Source: Neopestalotiopsis rosae (taxonomy: Eukaryota; Ascomycota; Sordariomycetes; Amphisphaeriales; Sporocadaceae). Taken from it: DNA of 64,000 bases. The stretch covers positions 4,836,001 through 4,900,000 of the forward strand of contig JALGAS010000005.1 of assembly GCA_023078685.1 (NCBI GenBank). The letters run 5' to 3'. Shown piece after piece: positions 9,915 to 59,753 of the stretch. The notes under the pieces were generated by a model. That model ran no database searches. It was not told where the DNA came from and worked only from the letters and a program-made list of their open reading frames with translations. The translations under genes were made by a program, and so were the position numbers. Positions within the stretch are counted from its first letter, which is position 1; each line of letters begins with the position of its first letter.

Positions 9915-10493
9915 ATCACCAAGGTGAAATTTTGACAAGAGTGAAACGAGTGACGTGTGTGACTACATGGGTAGCTTGTCAGGCGCTGACGCAGGATGGG
10001 AATGTCGAGAATGATCTTCTCTCGTAGCCGTGAGTAGTGGCTACGGCTGTGTGCGAGCTTCAAAAATGACGAACAGTGGAAAGTTGAGACCGGTCGTCAG
10101 GTCACAAGTTTGTCAACGAGACCAAATTATTCTTGGCCGCGGGTGCCGCAAATGTGCTCGGCCCGGGGGTATACTTGAAGAGTTATGCCTGCTATGCACG
10201 ACTTCCGTTGGTTACAATGGAGGCCGGGGCAAGAACCTGGATTCTTGGATTTTGCTTGAACCTACGCACTACTTTCGGGTTTCACTGCGAATTGACTCTT
10301 TCCTAGCTGCGACAGGTGCTGTTCCCATGTTCTGCCTCTCTTGCAGACCCTTCTAAGGAGCGCAACCGAGCATTTCAATATTCAACACTATACCTACCTA
10401 CCTACCTAGGTAGGTACCTACTTATTGACATTCGCTTTCGAACCCGTTCCGTCTTCGGGGTCCACTTCTCCACAACGGCTAGCACGCGCAAAC
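9915..10493. promoter_or_regulatory. Divergent promoter region between the P450 and the SDR
   Basis: The 579 bp between the two start codons should carry control elements for both genes. The only clear structure is a TACC/GGTA repeat cluster at 10,391-10,420 with a perfect 18 bp palindrome at 10,399-10,416, about 80 bp upstream of the SDR start. No other gene is seen. Confidence 0.5.
10399..10416. repeat. Perfect 18 bp palindrome in the divergent promoter
   Basis: The sequence tacctacctaggtaggta equals its own reverse complement and is embedded in a run of TACC units. It could be a binding site for a dimeric regulator, but similar TACC/AGGT runs occur in fungal intergenic DNA by chance or slippage. 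Confidence 0.7.
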
Positions 10494-11650
10494 ATGGGGC
10501 CGCCCGCTTGTGGGATAACCCCGGAACAAGAGGCTAGCAAGGCCCAGTTCCTCCGCCGCCAGTTTTCCAGCGCTCCACCGGCTCTACTGAGGCACGATGC
10601 CGATCTGAGCGGAAAGACTGCCATCTTGACCGGAGCTAATGGTGGCATCGGCATCGAATGCTCACGCCAACTGCTTGATCTCGGTCTCAGCAAGCTCATT
10701 CTCGCTGTGCGCGACGAAGCCAAGGGCGAAATCGCCCGCAAAAGTTTGACACCTCTGCTTCAGTCTGGTCAAAGCATCGAGGTTTGGCAGCTGGACTACG
10801 CATCTTATGATAGCGTTATAGCTTTTGCGCAGCGAGCCGAAGGCCTCACCCCTCCGCTTGATATTGCTATTCTCAACGCTGGTGTCAATCGCGCAAACTT
10901 CAATCTCAACCCAACAACGGGTCACGAAGAGGATCTGCAAACCAACTATCTTTCAACTGTCTTACTGATTTTCCTCCTTCTCCGCGGATTCAGAAAGGCA
11001 TCATCATCTTCTCCCAGCCGCATAGTCGTCGTATCATCGGACCAAGCTGCGTGGGCCAGATTTGATGAGAAAGACAAGGTGCCGTTGCTACCAGCATTTG
11101 ACGACAAAGATGCCACATGGTATCCAATCGATCGGTATGCCACGACCAAGCTTTTGTGCCAGTTGTTCGTGACCGAAGTAGCCAAACGTACGCCATCGTC
11201 CCTCGCTGTCATCACTTGCGCCAATCCAGGACTTTGTTACGGCTCGCAAATCGGCAGCGAGCTAGGTTTTTTTGCGGCAGTCTTCATACGGCTAGTAGGT
11301 CATTCGACTGCCACTGGCGCGCGTAGTATCATATATGCTGCCGCTAAGCCCGACGAAAACTTACATGGTCAATATATTGAAGATGCGACGATCAGACCGT
11401 AAGCCTTTTTCTTTTTCTTTCTTTTTTGTGTAGAGGATACAATGTTTCGTATCCTTTGTCGCGATCACCGATAACTCGTTCGCCTCGCGGTTGACATTGA
11501 AGCTGATTCAATTGAGTACACTTTAGAATGGCGCCATTGGTGTATTCCAAGGAAGCAGAAACGATCGCTCGGCGATTGTGGGAGGAGACTCTGCAAGAGC
11601 TTTCTTTCGCAGGAGTCAAGGACGTGGTAGACAGCCTGACCTCTCTTTGA
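10494..11650 (+). CDS. Short-chain dehydrogenase/reductase
   Basis: Model join(10494..11398, 11527..11650) gives 342 residues. The ATG at 10494 has a good context (CAAACATGG). The cofactor motif TGANGGIG is near residues 46-53, NAG follows, SS lies before the catalytic region, and YATTK supplies the YxxxK pair. The second exon (MAPLVYSKEAE through RLWEETLQEL) is the usual C-terminal helix of this SDR group, and it restores the family's length. The fragment up to 11,402 alone would end prematurely in the intron. The enzyme is probably NADP-dependent and cytosolic. It is divergent to the P450 and may act in the same pathway. Substrate unknown. Confidence 0.87.
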
Positions 11651-14746: not shown

Positions 14747-17315
14747 TTAAGTACAGGTTCCAAAATCCGACTGGCAGCCAGTTCCACAGTTATCACTGCT
14801 GCTGCCGCAGTAGCCCCACTGAGAGCAGCAGGATCCGAACTGAGAGCCGGCGCAAGTGTAAGCATTGTCCCCGCCGCAAGTACCGTCTGGGCTAACAGTA
14901 CCACCACCCTCATCACAGACGCCGAAGGCTGTCTGACACCCGCTTCCGCAGTAGGCCGAATCGGAGCCACAGTACCCGCTGGAGGAGCAGCAGTTGCCGA
15001 AAGCTGAGCCGGCGCACGTCATATCTCCTGCTGCAGTGCCGCACGTTCCGTCGGTACTGACGTTGGACGTTGCCGTTGGCGAGGACGTAGTTGCGGTGCT
15101 GGTGGCCGTAGTTGCAACGGACGTGGTCGTGGCGCCGGCGTCACCGTCCACACCGATACAGAGGTAGTAGTCAGGCCACAGTGCACTGCAATCGGAACCC
15201 AGTGATGGGTTCCACTCGTAAAGCTCGTCTAGGCTGATCCCATGATCATTGGCGATGGCCCAGCATCCGTCACCAGACACCACCTTGTAGAAACTGGTAC
15301 AATCCGATACCATGCCGCTCTGAGTAGGTGTGGGAGTCGCGACGCCCGTACTCGTGGTGGATGTGGCGCTTGTTGTTGTTGTCGTCGCCGTCTCAGAGTC
15401 GGTGCTGCCGTGGGGGTATGAGCCCTCCTCCGAGGTGGAGTAGCAATAATACGTCCCCTTGACGAAACCAGAACAATCTGCGCCTACAGAGGGGTTGCAT
15501 TCGTAGAACCAGGCAAAGGGCATGCGTAACAGGCTAAGGTGTGCATCGCAAGACAGCACCGCGGGAAACCACCTCGTACAGCCGCTGATCTCGCCGGCCG
15601 CACGTGGGGAGACCGGGACCGCGGTAGCCGCCGTTGCCGGGGTCGGACTGGCAAGGACGCGGCAATACGAGACACTCGGAGCCAGCGTACAGTCGTAGTC
15701 GTACGACTTGGTCGCCGCGCCCTCCTCATTCTGGTCCAAACTGGGGTTCCACAGAACGAACTGCTCATTGCTGAGCTCGTTTGATTGGGCCGCCTCCCAG
15801 CAGGTGTTTGGGGTGCTGAGAGAGTCGTTCCACCAAAAGTATTCCCAGCAGTCGTCGCGGGTGTTGTTAGCCAGCGGGATGACGACAGAGTCACCGCTCT
15901 CGACCCAGGGATCCACGTACTCGATCTCCGTGGTCTCCTGAGGCTCAAAGGTGTCATCTGGGGTCTCCTCAGCGTAGCCTGGGTAGTCTTCAATCTCGCC
16001 AACAGGCGCAACGCAGTATGAAGTGTCGGCCCACAATTTGGTGCAGTTCTGTTCGACCATTGGGTTAAGGAAGATGAAGTCGTCCAACGAAATGCCATAT
16101 TTGAGCTCGACTGTGCCGCAGTCTTCGCCAGCTTGTACTTCATGGTAAAGTCCACAATTTGTAGTAGTAGTTGGGGCAACGTTGGAGGGGACTTCAGCCG
16201 GCTCTGTGTATGTTGCGCTGTCCGTGTTGTTCACAAGACTGTACTCGCCAAGAGGGTTTGTCAAACACATAGTTTGGCCCACGAACAGGCCAATGTTGTT
16301 GCATAGACCGTTGATAAATGGATTCCAAGACCGGAGCGAAGCTTGACTGATGTCTTTCGCATCGCTTATACTGCGACAAGTGTCGCCGTCTTGGATCACG
16401 TAGACGGTGCATTGGTTCCTGATGCACAGAGTTCCAGAGGTCGGGAAGTCTGCCAGACTGTAATCCAGGCCGTTCGCAGTAATCAGATCATGCGTTGCTA
16501 CACCTTGAGAAACAGAAACACTCAAGTATGTATCTTCAGTCTGCACAACATATTGGCTGACACAGTCTGCCGTTGCCGTTGGCCTATTGTGGTCAGCTTC
16601 CGAATATTCTGATCAGTGGAAGTGTGTAACTCACGATGAGATGAGTAAAGGTTCAACCGTCATGGTTGCTGGAGGTCCGTCGTAGCCACAACTCGAACTC
16701 ATAGAAGCGTAGATGGATTGCATCTCCTCGGGAGCTGAGTCGATGGGTGACACAGCGTGGATGTAGGCAGTTTTGAGATAGCATTCATCACACTCTGGGT
16801 TCTCGGCTTCATTGACGCCGTCCTGGAACCACAGATTACAATACTCATCGCTAAAAACAAGAAAGGTGTTAAAACAATACAGATATGGCAGACTCTCCCG
16901 GCGAATCTCACCTTCGCTTCAAACATGTGAGATTATAACCGTATATGGCCTTGTCTGTGAGGTATGTCACAGGCCAAGTAGAGCCATCCGAGACGCTGTA
17001 ATATGTGACATCGGAGCCACAGCTCGATATGAGAGTGCTACGGTGCTCCTGAAGGCTATCGAAGCAAGTGCTAGTACAGAGTGCATCCAGGATGGTCTGG
17101 TCAAGATTTGGCCAGAGGTTCGCGTACAGTGATCCAATCGCCTGTTTACATGACACGTTTGCGTTGAATGCGTCCAGACACTCTTGAGAAGATCCAGGAA
17201 GCATTGAGCTATCGGCGTAGTTCAAAGGGTAATATGCATCTTGGGCTCGAGCTGGCACCCAACAGGCAAAGATATGAACAAGAATGCTTACAAGCCAGTG
17301 CTTTGTTGCTGCCAT
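14747..17315 (-). CDS. Secreted LysM and CBM18 (hevein-type) chitin-binding protein
   Basis: Model complement(14747..16583, 16635..16850, 16912..17315) gives 818 residues. It begins with a signal peptide (hydrophobic residues about 7-24, A-R-A-Q-D cleavage area). A cysteine-rich region of about 180 residues without LysM follows. About six LysM-like units come next, several degenerate; the clearest contain VYVIQDGDTC, YHEVQAGEDCGTV and FYKVVSGDGCWAI, each followed by WNP or NP and a closing cysteine. Ser/Thr-rich linkers separate units. Two CBM18 domains with eight cysteines each end the protein. Such proteins bind chitin fragments outside the cell, shielding hyphae or dampening host chitin sensing, or they act in mycoparasitism. 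Unlike many homologues, no GH18 chitinase gene is adjacent here. All introns are GT-AG, 51 and 61 nt. Confidence 0.9.
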
Positions 17316-20480: not shown

Positions 20481-22381
20481 TCATCTCTGGCTGATTCGCC
20501 GAACGAGATCTTCAATCTCGCAAATGACTGAACTGTACACCGCGTTTCGCAAGGACGGGTTTTCCAAGTCCGCGCCTTGCCCAAAGTCACAGTCCACGCA
20601 CTTCTGCACGATCTCTTGGAATCGCGGGCCCAGCCTTGATGTTTGGTGCGCACGTCTCCGGATCATGACGACGTCATCGGCATTCATCGCACACCATCGG
20701 TCAATCTGTAATAACGCGACGCCGAGGCTGTAGAGTGCCATGTTCCGTATCCCGTAGAGTAGCTGAGCCTCGCCGACATCTTGAGGCTCTGTAGGACTCG
20801 GCTTTCCGGTCATGTAGGGCTCTTCTCTCAACGCTTGTCGTCGGTCAATCTCTGCACTAATATGCAGGGTCTGTAGGATCGTCGCCAGATTCATGTCTTC
20901 TTCATGATTGTTTGGAAAATAATATACGTCCTCGAGACTCCAATACGATCGCCACCATGGGCTGGGGTTGAGCTGAAGCATACCGCGCGCCAATGCCAAG
21001 GCAATTTGGAGCTGGTCAGGTATGGACAAACTAGTGGCGACTGGCTGCTTCAGAATGGTTCGGAGAGAAGACGAGCTCTGGTATGAGGTTGGTAGATCTG
21101 GCCAAGTGTCGGCTACATTTCCAAGGATGTGTCGAAAGCCTGCCGCATGATCTATGTATAGCACAGATGCAGTAGGCAGCGCCAGCATCTTGAATTTTTG
21201 GCAGATCGTACCGCACACATCGTCGGACTGGGACAAATCAAGTTGCGGAATCAGGCAGCTCAAGTTTAGGTCAGTGATTTGTTTTGAAGAGGCAGGTACC
21301 GTTGATATGTGCGAGATCTCCTCTTCGTCTTTCATTTTTATCCTCTTGGCGGGTCGTGGACCATCATAATAAGAAGCTACCGACGTGGTGCTTGAGCACG
21401 GAGTTAACGGCGCTTGAGTAAGACGATCTGTTGTCAGTTTTTGGGATAGAACACTGAGCCTCACCACCTCCCTAAAGCCTGGTTAATTGTACAAATAATA
21501 ATCATGTATCAGCATATAGGGCCCCTACGTATTGGCTTTGAATCCGGACACAGTCCGCTGACGCATCAGAAATTTGACTGTTTCTCCCGCTTGTCCAAGG
21601 AATAGAGCTAGGTCATGGTACACATGCCGTGATTGGGAACATGACCAATTTTGCGTTAAAGCTTGATAAAAGGATCGAGTGTACGATTGCAAGAAATCAT
21701 AATACGTGGGGATTTCGTTCGTATCATGATCCTTTCGTTTCGGCTTGACATGCCGAATCTGCTTGGTCGTCTTCCGCAAACGCTTGAAGTCCTGGTTCAG
21801 TTCGCAAAAGTTGTCAATCTTCGACAACCACTTCGATTTATGCTGCGTCACGTCTATGGCTCCCTTGATACGTTTAGACGTTGTGGGCTTGAAAAGTTAG
21901 AGGCGATGTTAGACTGCGAAGTGAATGGGGCATTGGGCTCACAGCTTCAGTGGTTTCCAGATATAGGAGGCTCAGATCCTTGTCCAGGGCAGCGATGATA
22001 TCGTGTATGTCTTGCACCACTTCTTTGAAGTCATCATACCTCCTACCAAGATATGCTTCGATTTTCTCGTCCAGCTGCGATGAATACCACAAGCGGTTGT
22101 CTGGCTCCTCGAGCATAAAGACGACATCATCTGGGTCGATAATCTCTTGGAGTAGCAGATGGCATTCGTCGAGGAATATGTGTGTTTCCTCAAGCAATCT
22201 TAGCCATTTCACGATTTGATTATGGCTATACGTGACATACCTTCGTAAACTTTTTCCTTATTCTCTTGAGTTCTGATCTCGAATGGCGCAGTGTTTTGAG
22301 TGTCGACTTTGCAGCTTTGATGCCTTTTATAGCGCTCAGACATAGAGGAGCTATGCCAAGCGCAAGAGATACGGGATCCAT
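20481..22381 (-). CDS. Fungal protein with helical N-terminus and DUF7580-like C-terminal domain
   Basis: Model complement(20481..21471, 21529..21887, 21943..22198, 22251..22381) gives 578 residues. The N-terminus starts MDPVSLALGIAPL, a pattern typical of HeLo-like or STAND N-termini, and continues as a mainly helical region of about 240 residues. The C-terminal part contains LALARGMLQLNPSPWW, an EDVYYFPN stretch and MALYSLGVALLQI, which I recall as the DUF7580 pattern; it resembles a kinase C-lobe without catalytic residues. A basic PAKRIKMKDEEE stretch could be a nuclear signal. The first intron (22,199-22,250, donor GTTTAC) is the weakest junction; it was chosen because it keeps the frame and the family pattern. 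Function unknown; such proteins cluster with incompatibility genes. It shares a divergent promoter with the C2H2-SH3-bZIP gene. Confidence 0.72.
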
Positions 22382-22748: not shown

Positions 22749-25121
22749 ATGGATGGTGGACCAGAGATTCAGCGGTGGCAAGATGCAGTGCTAAGCAGTC
22801 ATGATATACTCTCCCAGAAGTCACTCTTGGCGTCTCTGTTTACGTCCTGTTCAGAATTATTCGTATTACTGATTCATTCCCTGTCGCAGGAAACGCCTCC
22901 ATCCTTCCGCTTCGAGCTCCAGCGCAGCCACGATCGTTTAGTTCTCTGGGCCGATGCGTATGGTATCGAGGAAGGCAAATTTGAGAGCAAGCTTGAAATG
23001 TCGCAGCGTATTGGCGACTTTACCTTGAGAACTCTGAAAAGCGTGTGTCGAACGTTGACCCACAGTAAACTTGGCAGTGTCTCTTCCGTTCATGCGCATG
23101 ATTACTGACTTCTTTCAGGGCTTCTTCCAATTCTTCAGCAGCATGGTGCCACAGAAAGCGAACATTCCTTAAAAGCAGCAAATCTTTGGATACTGGCCGA
23201 ATCATTGTCGGTGTTGATTCAAGGTGATGATAGCAGCGATGATTCCAGTGGTGATGAGTCTGAAGCAAATTACATCGAGCGCGGTGGAGTGGCCGATTTG
23301 GAGAATTTGCGTGAGATCATCGAGGATTTGGACGTGGATACAGAGTGTCTCCTTGATCTTGGCACACGGCTTGAGGAGCAGGTTGTGAATCCGATCATCA
23401 ACGAGAAATCAGTTGATCCTCAAACGATAGATGGTTGGGACCCCTCGAAACATTTTGTTGAACGAATCAGACGTTTGTATCCTTCATGCGAAAACGATTT
23501 GGCCAAACGCCTTGGACAGGCGAACTGGGAGAGAGTGCTAAAGTTTCAAGGGAGCAAAGAAAGGAATATCTCAGAGTCGATTGGTCTTACCACGACCGTG
23601 TCAACATTCAGTGACCCAGCCCATCTTCTACATGAGCCAAAGGGAACGACTTCACTATTTCATGACTCTGGCGTGGGTACTTCCACGGGAACGAAAAGCC
23701 TCCAACCTCGCAGCAAATATGCTGCGTCACTGGTCACCCAAGTCAATCGGAACGACATCATATTAGAAATTCCAGAGTTGTCACTTGAAGCAAAGCAGGG
23801 CATGGAATTCAACTGCACGGCCTGTGGTGAACGATTAAATATTCAAGACGATGCCGATTGGAAGTATGTCCTCCAACGGATTGATTCAATGTTGGTTGAT
23901 TGCGGGAGTTGCATGCTGATACATCATACTAGAGACCACATCATTTCTGATCTTCAGCCGTATACGTGCCTGGAAAGAGGCTGCGAGAGCTTGATGTTTC
24001 TGTCGAAATCAAGCTGGATCCGTCACCTCCAACGCTCGCATAGATCGCTGGATGACTGGGCAGCAACGACGTGTCGTTTCTGCCACAAGCCCGTACCATC
24101 TGGTATGGACAGCATAGTGGCTCACTTGTCGGACCATTTAGAGAAGATTGCGATCATGGCGCTTCCCATCGATCAAAGTCCAGAATTTCTAAGGACAGGT
24201 AGAGCCAAATCGACCTTGGACCTTCCTACTCCGAGCCGACGAAGCCAATATGGCCACTCGCTACCATCGCCACCAGGAGTGGCACCACCCGTACCGTTCG
24301 CAGCTTCAAGCAAAGGAGCACCACTCGTGGCCGAGGTATTGTATGACTTTTCGGGGCAGCACACAAACGAGCTTAACATCTCATCTGGTCAGATTATCGA
24401 GATCGTGGAGAAGCAAAGTCGCGGTGAGAAACAATGCTCGCTTCGAGGAAACTAACATATACTCCTAACATACTGACTATTTATAGGCTGGTGGTTGGCC
24501 AAGAGTGCTCAGGGTCGAGGATGGGTTCCAGCTGCCTACGTTGAGGAGATCAAAGCGCCAACCTCAGCACATATGCAGAGACCCGTACCATCCCCATCCC
24601 TGGTGCCTACTGCAACAGCAGTCGTGGCGAAGGAGATGAGCTTACAGGATTACAAGGAAAGGATGACCCAACGCGCTGGCACGAGTCCAAATCAATCATA
24701 TTTGCAGCAAAACTCTGAGAAAGAACAAGCAGATCAGGACAAAACCGAGTCTGGCCATTCTACCCGTGACGTTGAATTGCAGCACAAAAACAGCTCTCGG
24801 CGCTTTCAGAGTATTCATAAGGCGAGTTTTGACTCAGGGGTCGACAAAGACCCTAACCCGCCCATAAAAGTCGACAGTCCACAAGATACAACCGCCATGA
24901 AGAGAGCTCGCAATACATTAGCTGCTCGCAAATCTCGAGAGATCAAAGCTCAGAGATTGGATGATCTGGAATCGCAAATAAGAAAACTCGAGGCGGAGCG
25001 AGATCATTGGAAAAGGATATCTTTATCGGCGAGGGGCCAGAACAGGGTGGAAGCGAATCAAACTTCTACACAGGATCGAACTGCTACACAGCAGTTTCAT
25101 GGACATGATGAAGCCGTCTAG
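22749..25121 (+). CDS. Fusion protein: acuF-type C2H2 zinc-finger module, SH3 domain and GCN4-like bZIP
   Basis: Model join(22749..23064, 23119..24423, 24487..25121) gives 751 residues. Residues about 1-260 form the helical N-terminal module seen with fungal C2H2 proteins annotated as oxidoreductase acuF-like (FRFEL, DRLVLWADAYG, LLPIL blocks). Residues about 336-455 hold the Cys/His zinc-finger array ending in HLEKIAIMALP, the typical end of that family. Residues about 508-562 form a whole SH3 domain: EVLYDFSGQHTNELNI, then RGWWLAKS and GWVPAAYVEEI, most like class I myosin SH3. The second intron splits this domain, and its two halves join in frame. Residues about 678-715 are a bZIP: KRARNTLAARKSREIK then L701, I705, L708, very like GCN4/CpcA. 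I infer a DNA-binding adaptor; the zipper is short. Confidence 0.85.
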
Positions 25122-26706: not shown

Positions 26707-28575
26707 ATGAGGCTGATCAACACCGAGCACTTTCTCGATAAGGGCGAAATTGCCTTTAAAGATAGAGACAGCATACGCAACAAACCATATGCCATTCTCT
26801 CTCATACATGGGGTCGACAGATGGAAGTAGATGGCAAGCCCGACTGGGGCGGCGAAGATGATGAGATTGTGTTTGCAGACGTTGCTGACGGGGACACGGG
26901 CACGAAGAAGCCTCACGCTTGGAGTAAAATCAAGAACGCCTGCGAAGCAGCACAGAAACATGGGTGTGGTTATCTCTGGGTAGACACTTGCTGTTTCAAC
27001 AAGGAAAGTTCAGCAGAGCTGGACGAGAGCATCAATGCCATGTTTTCGTGGTATCAGCAATCGGAAGTTTGTCTCGTATATTTGGCCGATCTTGAAGTCG
27101 ATTCGGTGCAGGTACACAAGGATGAAAAGGATCAGTGTCGTTGGTTCAAGAGGGGCTGGACGCTACAGGAATTGATCGCTCCCAAGAAGGTCGAATTCTA
27201 CAACCAGGATTGGAAAAAGGTTGGATCCAGAATCGACCTTGTCGATATTCTACACGAAATCACCGAAATTGATCGCGACGCTCTAACTGGGAAAAGATCT
27301 TGCTTGTCCTTCACAGTTGCCGAGAGGATGAAGTGGGCAGCTCATAGAGAGACGAAGCGCCCAGAAGACCGTGCGTATAGTCTTCTTGGCCTGTTTGGCG
27401 TTCAAATGAGCTTGATTTACGGGGTTGGAGGGAAGGCAGCATTCCGAAGATTACAGGTGGAGATAATCCAAAACACGACTGACATGACTGTTTTCGCCTG
27501 GAGTCCCGACAAGGATACAAAGGAGACCAGTGAGTTCTGCAGCATGCTTGCAGACTCGCCAGATCGATTCGTGGAGAGTCCTACCATGAGCACCATGGAA
27601 CTCGAGGGTCATTTCTCTATTACGAACAGGGGTGTCTCGCTTGATGCCTCGACCTTGAGGACTGTCCCAAAAAAGAAACATGAACCGAAACAGGAATCGA
27701 AACAGGAATCAAAACAGGCATCCCAGCCTGCCCTTGTCTTTTTGATAGGGTACACTGATTATCCTGACCACATGATATGTTACGGTGTCTATCTCCAGAA
27801 GATTGGCAGTGCCAACTACGCCCGATACAGGACACATGGACTAGCCCAATTCAAGGAAGACAAGAAGAAGTACAAGTTGAAGCCGGTACCGCGCCATCAG
27901 TGCTACATCACGATTTCGCCTCGTGATGTAGAGTCTGCTCTTAGAAAGTCACACAGGAAAGCCATTGTTGTGCCAGAGGAGTTCAAGCCCAAGAGGTACA
28001 CCACAGAATGGGGCATCAAGGTCCTAGATCGCGTGCCAGAGCGTATCTGGGACTACCAGGAGGGATTGTTTTTCCGTGTCGGTTACGGGCACAGGGACGT
28101 TGTCAGAGCCGTTTCTGTGGAGTTGCACCTCCTAGATCAGAAAGTCAAGTTCACTGTCCTATTGCATCGATATGGAGATAGTGACAAGGTCTTTATCCTT
28201 GACGAAAAAAACACGAAGTTGTCAGGCGTCAAGCCCATCTTCGGTCCTAGTCAAAGATTTGATTCGGTCAAATGGGACGACCTGGCAATTGATCTTGCAG
28301 TTCAGAGCGAATACCTTGATGTGGTAGCTCAGGGCCGCTCCTACCGAGTCTCAGCGACTTTAGGCAAAAACGAGGATGGGAAGATGGAACTGAAACTTGA
28401 CGTTGCATCTGATGCTTACCAACAAATAGAGGATCTGAAGGACCAACAAATAGAGAGTCTGGAGCGCAGATTGAAAGATCTGGAGGAACTGATGAGGGAA
28501 AAACGAGCACGACTCAGTGACGATGATGAGGATGAAGAGGTAGATGCGTTAAAGAAACGCGCAAGGAACGTTTAG
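26707..28575 (+). CDS. HET-domain protein (HET-E/HET-D-like N-terminal type)
   Basis: Single exon, 622 residues. The start is the ATG at 26,707 (MRLINTEHF), the usual HET-E-type beginning; the frame continues upstream only through TTG. The HET domain occupies about residues 22-240: YAILSHTWG, YLWVDTCCFNKESSAELDES, MFSWYQQSEVCLVYLADL, WFKRGWTLQELIAP and RPEDRAYSLLGLFGV are all intact. Downstream is a beta-rich region of about 300 residues. A short KQES-type repeat lies at about residues 327-340. A coiled coil (about 575-605), an acidic run and a basic KKRARNV tail end the protein, suggesting oligomerisation and nuclear localisation. No NACHT or WD40 follows, so it is not a full HET-E. It probably acts in allorecognition cell death. 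Confidence 0.9.
   Translation: MRLINTEHFLDKGEIAFKDRDSIRNKPYAILSHTWGRQMEVDGKPDWGGEDDEIVFADVADGDTGTKKPHAWSKIKNACEAAQKHGCGYLWVDTCCFNKESSAELDESINAMFSWYQQSEVCLVYLADLEVDSVQVHKDEKDQCRWFKRGWTLQELIAPKKVEFYNQDWKKVGSRIDLVDILHEITEIDRDALTGKRSCLSFTVAERMKWAAHRETKRPEDRAYSLLGLFGVQMSLIYGVGGKAAFRRLQVEIIQNTTDMTVFAWSPDKDTKETSEFCSMLADSPDRFVESPTMSTMELEGHFSITNRGVSLDASTLRTVPKKKHEPKQESKQESKQASQPALVFLIGYTDYPDHMICYGVYLQKIGSANYARYRTHGLAQFKEDKKKYKLKPVPRHQCYITISPRDVESALRKSHRKAIVVPEEFKPKRYTTEWGIKVLDRVPERIWDYQEGLFFRVGYGHRDVVRAVSVELHLLDQKVKFTVLLHRYGDSDKVFILDEKNTKLSGVKPIFGPSQRFDSVKWDDLAIDLAVQSEYLDVVAQGRSYRVSATLGKNEDGKMELKLDVASDAYQQIEDLKDQQIESLERRLKDLEELMREKRARLSDDDEDEEVDALKKRARNV
27685..27723 (+). repeat. Short in-frame tandem repeat (12 nt unit, KQES)
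   Basis: About three near-identical 12 nt units encode KQES, KQES and KQAS inside the HET gene. Slippage would change the linker length in four-residue steps without breaking the frame. Confidence 0.7.
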
Positions 28576-57276: not shown

Positions 57277-57951
57277 TTTTTGCGGAAGCTGATATGGGGA
57301 AGAGAAGGCGGTAAATACAAGCTGTACAGCCGGTTATCCAGAGACAGGAGAGAACGCTGCGAATAAGGTGAATGGAGAGTACTTCTCGAGTGCCGTTTTA
57401 CGCGACGAGCGGCATGTATGTTCGGACCCGGCAACTTTTTGGCGTAGCTAAGCTGTCAACTGGAGCTCGAAGGTGGATTGCTGTGCTGGGAGTACTGAGA
57501 ATCAGCCTATTATGATTGATTGATTGGGGGTTCTCCAGGGGGCCCCGGCCGCTAGAGCCCCTCCAACTCCAGCGATTTGGCGAGGTTCAGGTACCAGCCC
57601 GTGGCCTCGGTAACGGCATCCGTAGTGAGCTCAGCACTGCCCGGTGACACCATTCTTGAGACCATGTCATCCATGTTAGAGACGCTGGTCTGACGTTTGT
57701 TGGCATTATCTTAGTTTCCTTCCGTGCGAGATATTTATCGGGATCACGCAAACAATACGCGTGAAAGGACTTTGTGCTTGATAGAGTAGACTCTTTCTTT
57801 TTTTCTTTTATTGGAATATCATAGACCTCGATTGGTCCTGTACATTCATTCCTACGATAGACTCGTTCTTTGCTTCCTCTCTCCTATCTGGGATATCTGG
57901 GGGAAAGTGTGTGATACCTCAACCAGGCACTCAAGCTCAAGCCGTGATACC
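57277..57951. promoter_or_regulatory. Divergent promoter region of the SPF45-type gene and PCS60
   Basis: About 675 bp between the start codons. A T/C-rich run at 57,790-57,810 lies about 150 bp upstream of PCS60. No other gene is seen. Confidence 0.5.
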
Positions 57952-59753
57952 ATGGCTACTCTGCAGACTGCAATTCGTGGCGCTGCCGGCTCGACGGCCG
58001 TCATCATCCCTTCAAAGTCTGGCGCCCTCACCGTCACCTACAAGGATCTTGCGGCCGAGTGCTCTGCATTCCAACGCAAGCTGGCGGACATTGGTATCGG
58101 CCACGGTGCTGCTGTATCTATTGCCGTAGTCAACTCGTACGAGTTTATCGTCTCGTTTGAGGCCACAGCTTGGCAACGCGCAGTTGCCGCTCCCTTGAAC
58201 CCTGCCTACAAGCAGGATGAGTTTGAGTTCTACATTGACGATGTCAAGTCGGCCATTGTCCTGGTTCCCAAGGGTGCCTACCAGGCCAATGCACCGGCTG
58301 TGAAGGCGGCCAAGAAGTTCAATGCTGCGATTGCCGAGTGCTACTGGGACGAAACCAAGAAGGAGGTCGCGCTCGATGTCAAAGATCTCGGCCTCCTTAA
58401 GGGAAAGGCCAAGGAGAATATACTGCAAGCGCAGACTGATGATGTCGCGCTGGTTCTACACACGAGGTGAGTCAGTGGTTCGTAGTAGTTCAAACGCGAG
58501 ATACTGACCACTTGAACTTAGCGGAACCACATCAAGGCCCAAAGTCGTGAGTTTGACTGAGATTTTCTATAGCAAATTATCTCAAAATACTAATATGTTC
58601 ATTTCAGGTGCCCTTGACCCATCGCAACCTTGTCCGTACCATGGGTAAGTGATGCCAAGTCATGCAACACAAGACTTGTGCAGGTCTTGGCTTACCATTC
58701 TTGGAGTATACAACTAACCCGTGTCCAGGAAACATACAGAGCACATACAACCTCACCTCGGCGGACCGGACTATGCTGGTCATGCCTCTTTTCCACGTCC
58801 ATGGCCTCCTTTGCGCCCTGCTGGCTCCTTTCTACTCTGGAGGATCCATGATTGTTCCCACGAAATTCTCTGCCACTGACTTCTGGCGGGACTTTGAGAC
58901 TCACAAGGCCAATTGGTACACGGCAGTGCCTACTATCCACCAGATCCTCCTCAAATCGCCTGTGCCTAACCCTTTGCCCAACATTCGCTTCATCCGCTCG
59001 TGCTCCTCACCGCTTTCCCCTGCCGTTTTCGAGAAGCTCGAGGAGACCTTCAAAGCTCCCGTTCTTGAGGCTTACGCCATGACCGAGGCAGCGCATCAGA
59101 TGACTTCGAACCCTCTTCCTCCTGCCAAGAGAAAGCCTGGTACTGTTGGCCTTGGCCAGGGTGTAATCGTGAAGATTCTCAATGATGCAGGCGAGGAGTT
59201 GCCCCAGGGAGCTGAGGGTGAAATCTGCATCCAAGGTGAAAATGTCACCAAGGGTTACCTCAACAACCCCAAGGCCAATGCGGAAGCATATACAAACAAT
59301 GGCTTTTTCCGCACTGGCGACCAGGGCAAGAAGGACGAAGATGGCTACATCATCATCACGGGAAGAATCAAGGAATTGATCAACAAGGGAGGCGAGAAGA
59401 TCAGCCCAATAGAGCTGGACAATGTGCTCACGAGACATCCTGCTATAAGCGAGGCCGTCAGTTTCGCCATCCCCCACGAGATGTACGGACAGGATGTCGG
59501 AGTAGCCGTTGTACTGAAGAGCGGCGAAAAGCTGAGCGCTGGCGAGCTCAAGCAGTGGATGACTGAGCGGGTAGCCAAGTTCAAGGTCCCGGCAAAGGTG
59601 AGTAACACTATGCACATGATATGAAGAAGCCAAGCTGACAATTTACAGATTTATTTCTCTGATGTCATGCCCAAGACTGCTACTGGCAAGATTCAGAGGC
59701 GTATCGTCGCCGAGACGATGATGAAGCAAGACCAACCCAAGGCGAAGTTGTAG
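57952..59753 (+). CDS. PCS60: Peroxisomal AMP-binding acyl-CoA synthetase, Pcs60 type (oxalyl-CoA synthetase-like)
   Basis: Five exons, join(57952..58466, 58522..58546, 58608..58644, 58729..59597, 59649..59753), give 516 residues. The enzyme activates a carboxylic acid with ATP and CoA. Two micro-exons (25 and 37 nt) carry the ATP-binding P-loop: SGTTSRPK at 172-179, then VVPLTHRNL. Further adenylate-forming motifs are YAMTEAAHQM, GFFRTGDQG, the hinge GRIKELINKGGEKISP and the catalytic lysine region PKTATGKIQRR. The C-terminus is KAKL, and AKL is a variant type 1 peroxisomal signal. Yeast Pcs60 is similar in size and also peroxisomal; oxalate is its best-known substrate. Confidence 0.93.

Follow-up and report, generated by a model that had tools for sequence, protein, structure and literature searches.

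How a single fungal gene came to join a C2H2 zinc-finger module, an SH3 domain and a bZIP, and what such a protein might do, is the question raised by this locus. The DNA analysed (the window) is a stretch of 64,000 nucleotides at positions 4,836,001-4,900,000 of contig C13, which runs to 4,977,431, in a genome of 53.8 Mb and 17 contigs. A preliminary description of the window had placed an acuF-type C2H2 module, a myosin-like SH3 and a Gcn4/CpcA-like bZIP in one frame and had suggested that both of the latter might have been captured from other genes.

Structure of the fusion gene

Joined at 23064/23119 and 24423/24487, the gene has GT-AG introns and can be read as a single open frame 751 residues long, and to this extent the splicing first proposed holds. 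It overlooked, however, the stretch 23864-23932, which is 69 nt long, starts with GTATGT, ends with TAG and is in phase, the frame staying open across it. The 23 residues that it would encode are missing in all five aligned relatives, which run W..H..(S/T)DL.PYxC unbroken, and for this reason an intron is the most likely reading of the stretch, with a product most likely of 728 residues, not 751. On the forward strand, exon 1 (22749..23064) then encodes the helical N-terminal module and is followed by intron 1 (23065..23118, GT-AG); exon 2 (23119..23863) encodes more of the helical module and the start of the C2H2 region; and beyond intron 2 (23864..23932, placed by alignment to the relatives) exon 3 (23933..24423) carries the C2H2 fingers, a Pro-rich linker and the first half of the SH3. 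Intron 3 (24424..24486) lies within the SH3, and exon 4 (24487..25121) holds the second half of the SH3, a linker, the CPC1-type bZIP and the stop. In the 728-residue form the SH3 occupies residues ~486-539 (24327..24551, forward strand, intron 3 within) and the basic region begins at 655. The splice points other than intron 2 are less settled. The reading of intron 1 (LTHRLLPIL) is shared with three of the five relatives (P0002, P0125 and P0127), six residues being absent there from the P0001 and P0126 gene models, and the P0001 model is without 59 finger-region residues present in the other four.

There is no doubt about the SH3 (Pfam SH3_1, E=1.8e-12, at 512-556 in the 751-residue form), which is complete, as had been described. 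The motifs VLYDF, GWW and VPAAYVEEI are present, and by inspection it retains the usual ligand-binding motifs. The bZIP scores under the Pfam cut-off (bZIP_2, E=0.0028, 18.1 bits against 22.3); its likeness to Gcn4/CpcA is nevertheless upheld by 79% identity over 62 aa to the CPC1 of the same genome. Against 119 CPC1-type sequences compared, its identity reaches a maximum of 80% with a mean of 71%. A basic region of CPC1 type (RNTLAARKSR) and a short zipper are present, the basic region being kept but for a single R->I change. The CPC1-like stretch of flank and bZIP (PPIKVDSPQDTTAMKRARN...WKRISL) lies at 24858..25025 on the forward strand. No C2H2 family scored above cut-off in a Pfam scan of the window protein: the C2H2 label, and with it the acuF-type module that had been placed in this frame, is based on PF26082 (AcuF-like C2H2) and on alignment to the relatives. 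PF26082 is precomputed on P0001 and P0127 and goes unreported by the Pfam copy used here. The same scan of the fusion protein gave no myosin motor or TH1 match and no NACHT/NB-ARC (nucleotide-binding) match. The activation motif of CPC1, W[FY]PLFP, is absent from both the window gene and P0001, while W[FYG]PLFP occurs in 95 of the 118 other matches listed among the best 120 of 218 matches to the C-terminal part.

Two further approaches to the N-terminus and the fold were set aside. A HeLo domain was considered for the N-terminus of the fusion protein on one weak match, in one of five relatives (P0002, E=0.01, below cut-off). An AlphaFold2 model of P0002, built from a 5-sequence alignment, was poor (mean pLDDT 43.7); a Foldseek search of the PDB with this model returned nothing at E<=0.001, and no structural argument is built on it.

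It could be argued that adjacent genes have been read as one, given that the database proteins which resemble the product are themselves predictions. Such a gene-model artefact is extremely unlikely: first, a single unbroken 635-bp exon encodes both the second half of the SH3 and the bZIP; second, the domain order is repeated in other records; and third, two sister genes in this genome have fingers and tail in single ORFs, of 545 aa (C3:146337, CRZ1-like tail) and 614 aa (C13:4756, Zn2Cys6 tail).

Origin of the captured parts

When the genome is searched with P0001, the best SH3 match outside the fusion gene itself is found at C13:3837462-3837848, beside the head of a class I myosin (C13:3838833); the second half of this SH3 is 62% identical and the first half with its upstream part 39%. 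In the myosin and in the window gene an intron splits the SH3 at the identical point, behind the first G of a shared glycine codon (G|GC TGG TGG). No others of the 27 genome SH3 matches are interrupted at profile position 29-30, in a comparison which, as a six-frame search, is a loose control. From the final AG of intron 3, 61/75 bp are identical to the myosin I DNA of the same genome. The shared codon and phase of the intron, together with this identity, indicate that the SH3 segment was copied at the DNA level from a class I myosin gene, intron included, a conclusion that is well supported. The resemblance to class I myosin noted earlier is thereby borne out and extended to intron position; the fusion gene differs from these myosins in having no motor or TH1 match.

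Searched with a CPC1 (P0012), the genome yields two sites: the gene for its own CPC1, at C14:3660343, and the fusion gene. The latter matches at 71% over 73 aa, covering CPC1 residues 412-484 only, and no colinear match to the N-terminal part of CPC1 was found in the window gene. Over the CPC1-like stretch, 89/122 bp are identical to the CPC1 of the same genome. The gene thus resembles the CPC1/CpcA/Gcn4 activators in its bZIP and PPIxVDxP flank and departs from them in lacking the activation motif and the CPC1 N-terminus and in having the C2H2 module and SH3. Genes of both donor types sit in the same genome, in keeping with the proposed capture from both sources. For the linker between SH3 and bZIP no genome donor besides itself was found (next match E=0.69). 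As judged from these similarities, the case that the gene is genuinely chimeric, combining a helical and C2H2 module with a CPC1 C-terminal part and a myosin I SH3 segment, is well supported. The window bZIP is nearer to the CPC1 of Pestalotiopsis and of its own genome (79-80%) than to the bZIP of P0002 (69%), and for the bZIP the simplest account, though not a proven one, is a single capture with later divergence. A bZIP tree (62 columns, quick method) left 65/103 inner branches open, and the capture was not dated from it.

The best relative is P0001 (Neopestalotiopsis sp. 37M), with 97% identity over 100% of residues 495-751 of the 751-residue form. It shares the C2H2-SH3-bZIP order with P0002 (Pestalotiopsis sp. 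IQ-011), and among the best 120 of 218 matches to the C-terminal part these two are the only ones on which an SH3 family is precomputed. A query of C2H2 and SH3 together, for which 717 candidates were drawn from ~5.8 billion sequences, gave six proteins at E<=0.001; again P0001 and P0002 alone span both parts, the next being a Myosin-1. The three-domain order, for which a search across Hypocreales had been proposed, thus points to the Sporocadaceae (Amphisphaeriales), to which Neopestalotiopsis belongs, and Hypocreales is unlikely. The N-terminal module as the query returned five proteins, P0001, P0002, P0125, P0126 and P0127, from 7994 scored candidates that share most words and are of similar length, a restriction under which other architectures may be missed. 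In P0125 (Paramyrothecium foliicola) and P0126 (Stachybotrys chartarum) the module is 48% identical over 99% and the tail is a CPC1-type bZIP, above the bZIP_2 cut-off in P0125 and below it in P0126, which also has a DUF7896 match; a scan of both gave no SH3 match. In P0127 (Biscogniauxia) the module is 36% identical and there is no bZIP. An activation-like motif is kept in P0002, P0125 and P0126 (DPWFPLFP, EVWYPLFP and TGTWGPLFP respectively), so that P0125 and P0126 share the N-terminal module and CPC1-type tail with the window gene and differ from it in having this motif and no SH3 match. P0125 is recorded as 'Cross-pathway control protein 1' despite being a C2H2 fusion, and Paramyrothecium foliicola also encodes an ordinary CPC1 of 431 aa (P0020). 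Given that P0125 and P0126 have both C2H2 module and CPC1 tail without the SH3, this join is probably the older one, spanning Hypocreales and Amphisphaeriales, with the SH3 added on the Sporocadaceae side. Alternatively, horizontal transfer or repeated capture may account for this distribution.

P0002 appears to have gained more. Between its SH3 and bZIP lies a Gln/Pro-rich stretch that is 42% identical over 168 aa (E=2.4e-18) to a gene of the genome analysed here, the C-terminal part of which weakly matches Med15_fungi (E=8e-4, below cut-off). A further segment of 32 aa shows 59% identity (E=4e-5) with the end of a kinase-like gene; this gene, with a Pkinase_C match under the cut-off (E=0.061), is presumably COT1-like. 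The labels MED15-like and COT1-like for these fragments (residues about 560-960), from one predicted protein, are tentative.

Comparison of the window protein with P0002 gives identities of 181/250 for the helical part, 86/120 for the C2H2 part, 37/57 for the SH3, 43/57 for the bZIP with its flank and 29/100 for the linker between SH3 and bZIP. Relative to their donors in the same genome, the SH3 has 20 synonymous and 18 non-synonymous codon differences of 55 and the bZIP 37 and 15 of 64, where single random changes would give a non-synonymous share of 0.72-0.74; these counts combine the changes on both branches, and the synonymous positions may have reached saturation, so that the fused copy is not isolated. 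The differences favour constraint on the captured parts, although for the SH3 the case is weak. It is conceivable that the gene is a neutral or decaying chimera kept by chance, whose SH3 and bZIP no longer function: the bZIP falls under the cut-off and carries the R->I change, the activation motif is gone, non-synonymous differences in the SH3 nearly equal synonymous ones and the locus lies about 77-141 kb from the contig end. This is improbable, however, given that the frame is open with a predicted protein as close as P0001, that P0002 retains SH3 and bZIP despite a diverged linker and that the non-synonymous share is under the neutral expectation.

The module family, its partners and its tails

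Searches with P0001 and P0127 place the finger module at about ten loci in the genome, the window gene included. Nine come from the P0127 search, counting rows that cover the module and excluding those that match a later finger only, and C11:1910184 comes from the P0001 search. At eight of the ten loci (the window, C11:5695, C13:4757, C11:3286, C10:3765, C12:2246, C3:146 and C11:6013) a divergently transcribed gene lies beside the module gene. In the window this neighbour is at 20481..22381 on the reverse strand, with a DUF7580 match (E=6.1e-10) on 20481-21482; its ATG is at 22381, and 368 bp separate this from the ATG of the fusion gene. The paired neighbours begin MDPxSLxLxI.PL, MAELALAILPL or MSGxEVxGxVLGxxPL. 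DUF7580, of which the genome holds 17 matches, is above cut-off in six of the eight, in one of these only with its neighbours in frame; the seventh (C13:4758) reaches 26.7 bits against a cut-off of 27, and the eighth (C11:3285) was scanned at its N-terminus only. At C11:1910 there is no such divergent ORF of at least 150 aa within 6 kb, and at C10:5597, where almost no upstream DNA was examined, the nearest DUF7580 match is on the same strand. A HeLo-like N-terminus of the partner was considered from PigL_N matches in two of seven N-terminal pieces (E=7e-4 and 0.0023), both below cut-off, and was not adopted.

On its other side, 1.6 kb downstream, the fusion gene has a HET-domain gene (26713..28575 as the stretch scanned, forward strand, E=7.9e-12). 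This gene and the head-to-head DUF7580 gene form a context that would suit the earlier, speculative suggestion of a protein linking a cytoplasmic partner to transcription during a self/non-self response. Elsewhere in the window are an ORF with LysM (E=2.2e-25) and chitin-binding domains (14750-16612, reverse strand), a cytochrome P450 (8133-9473, reverse), a short-chain dehydrogenase (10410-11399, forward) and an AMP-binding enzyme across two ORFs (57790-59621, forward). Beside the pair at C13:4756, a large ORF (L036, 4729-6810, reverse strand) has by eye the look of a nucleoside-phosphorylase-type domain. Such domains are frequent in fungal NLRs.

The tails of the sister genes differ from that of the window gene. 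At C3:146337 the terminal zinc fingers are 95% identical over 111 aa to those of the gene at C11:3092321, a block that we take to be the CRZ1 finger block; at the DNA level 311 bp align at 88% identity, of 112 codons 35 differ synonymously and 7 non-synonymously, and the copy is without a donor stretch that lies between two matching blocks. At C11:5695 the last part of the frame encodes a bZIP basic region that matches C14:1696520 at 86% identity over 29 aa. The two share an intron position (C|GC), with DNA identities of 85% across the 79 bp preceding it and 86% across the 50 bp that follow. The C13:4756 ORF holds the module fingers and a tail with two Zn2Cys6 clusters (E=5.9e-14), also matches DUF7071 (E=1.8e-15) and adjoins an ORF with a PHD-like piece (E=8e-4, below cut-off); its closest other genome matches are 49% and 58%, so that no recent donor is seen. 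At C11:3286 the next ORF has finger-like motifs by eye and no Pfam C2H2 match, at C12:2246 the ORF ends without a tail, and a Pfam scan gave no tail family at C11:6013, C10:3765 or C10:5597. A donor for the C10:5597 tail was sought and not adopted, there being no Pfam match and other genome matches of merely 31-34% identity. By eye the tail of one sister module gene (L073, 1-1047, reverse strand) resembles a kinase N-lobe, with no Pfam match and weak genome matches. It is well supported that members of the family share the finger module, lie mostly head-to-head with a DUF7580-type gene and differ in their C-terminal domains, several of which are copies from regulators of the host. The sisters bear fragments of further regulators, and the whole thus has the appearance of a family that takes up segments of the regulatory proteins of the cell it belongs to.

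Wherever a tail family could be assigned, in four module genes, a DNA-binding domain forms part of the tail. This bears on the proposal that the fusion protein is a cytoplasmic scaffold, its SH3 binding actin-patch proline-rich partners and its bZIP helix merely dimerising, with no role in transcription. The retained SH3 motifs and the short zipper fit such a scaffold, although the zipper of CPC1 itself is also short; the DNA-binding tails of the sisters, a basic region intact except for R->I and the CPC1-like activation motif in three relatives do not, and the proposal is very unlikely.

Proposed function and biological meaning

Known systems offer partial parallels. Dual-specificity fungal transcription factors carry two types of DNA-binding domain, as the window gene may, its bZIP being assigned by similarity, and the combination of bZIP and C2H2 is already known, in 9/191 fungal TFomes (Shelest 2017, PMC5415576). 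In the portion of that paper available here neither domain capture nor gene pairing is described, and 'SH3' occurs 0 times in it. In the literature searched, which was largely open-access with bioRxiv outside its scope, no description of the SH3-bZIP join or of the DUF7580/C2H2 pair was found, nor any mention of DUF7580. This search agrees with the earlier statement that no described family is known to join SH3 and bZIP; the combination of C2H2 with bZIP is not unique to the gene, as P0125 and P0126 have it with no SH3 match.

The reading held here, with about as much belief as doubt, is that this chimeric family member is a DNA-binding regulator that would compete with or redirect CPC1, the SH3 serving as a docking site. 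The protein would be nuclear, and its tail would determine where it acts: the bZIP may pair with itself or with CPC1 and bind CPC1 (Gcn4-type) sites, the SH3 may dock the protein to a proline-rich ligand, and the signal may be given or received by the paired DUF7580 gene. Since the W-[FY]-P-L-F-P motif is missing, the protein would act on cross-pathway control chiefly as a competitor or as a re-targeted modulator. Gcn4-type activators act through Med15. Against this regulator model, the bZIP of the window gene, with its R->I change in the basic region, is under the Pfam cut-off, as is that of P0126, and neither the SH3 nor the MED15-like and COT1-like fragments of P0002 bind DNA or are needed by an output model.

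These non-DNA-binding pieces fit the strongest rival, an integrated decoy, in which the tails would be baits on a sensor module, as copies of host regulators likely to be targeted by an attacker, and the DUF7580-type gene would execute an immune or allorecognition response. Plant NLRs carry integrated decoys, and for Sordariales NLRs such baits have been proposed, a CHK-2-derived kinase among them; in both, a host domain is likewise copied and fused to another gene, and pairing is known (PMC12258605). The head-to-head pairs at eight of ten module loci, the HET gene that adjoins the locus and tails which, copied from regulators, stay host-like (95% identical in the CRZ1-like case) are all consistent with a decoy. 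However, the fusion gene is set apart from those NLRs by its lack of a NACHT/NB-ARC match and its decoy role is putative, no attacker or trigger is known, the HeLo-like assignment of the partner is weak, and the identified tails hold DNA-binding domains that also fit an output role. Furthermore, in the Sordariales study a non-canonical domain was present in just one of the head-to-head NLRs (PMC12258605). The decoy is considered rather unlikely, and the regulator that competes with or redirects CPC1 is retained as the working model.

A broader and tentative reading, itself doubtful, is of a paired recognition system outside the NLRs, in which a DUF7580-type gene lies head-to-head with a C2H2-module gene and the tail of the latter would be renewed by copying the cell's own regulators. 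The copied pieces would be those of CPC1, a CRZ1-like factor, another bZIP and myosin I, with MED15-like and COT1-like pieces in a relative, and the captured tails might be used either as baits or as re-targeted outputs. In either use, re-targeted regulator or bait, the locus would extend to a fungal gene pair a principle from transcription-factor evolution or from plant immune receptors. It provides a testable case of domain capture, as donors, intron positions and pairing are all visible in a single genome. If the family keeps capturing pieces of regulators, its tails would form a natural record of the host proteins that are important in fungal conflict or signalling.
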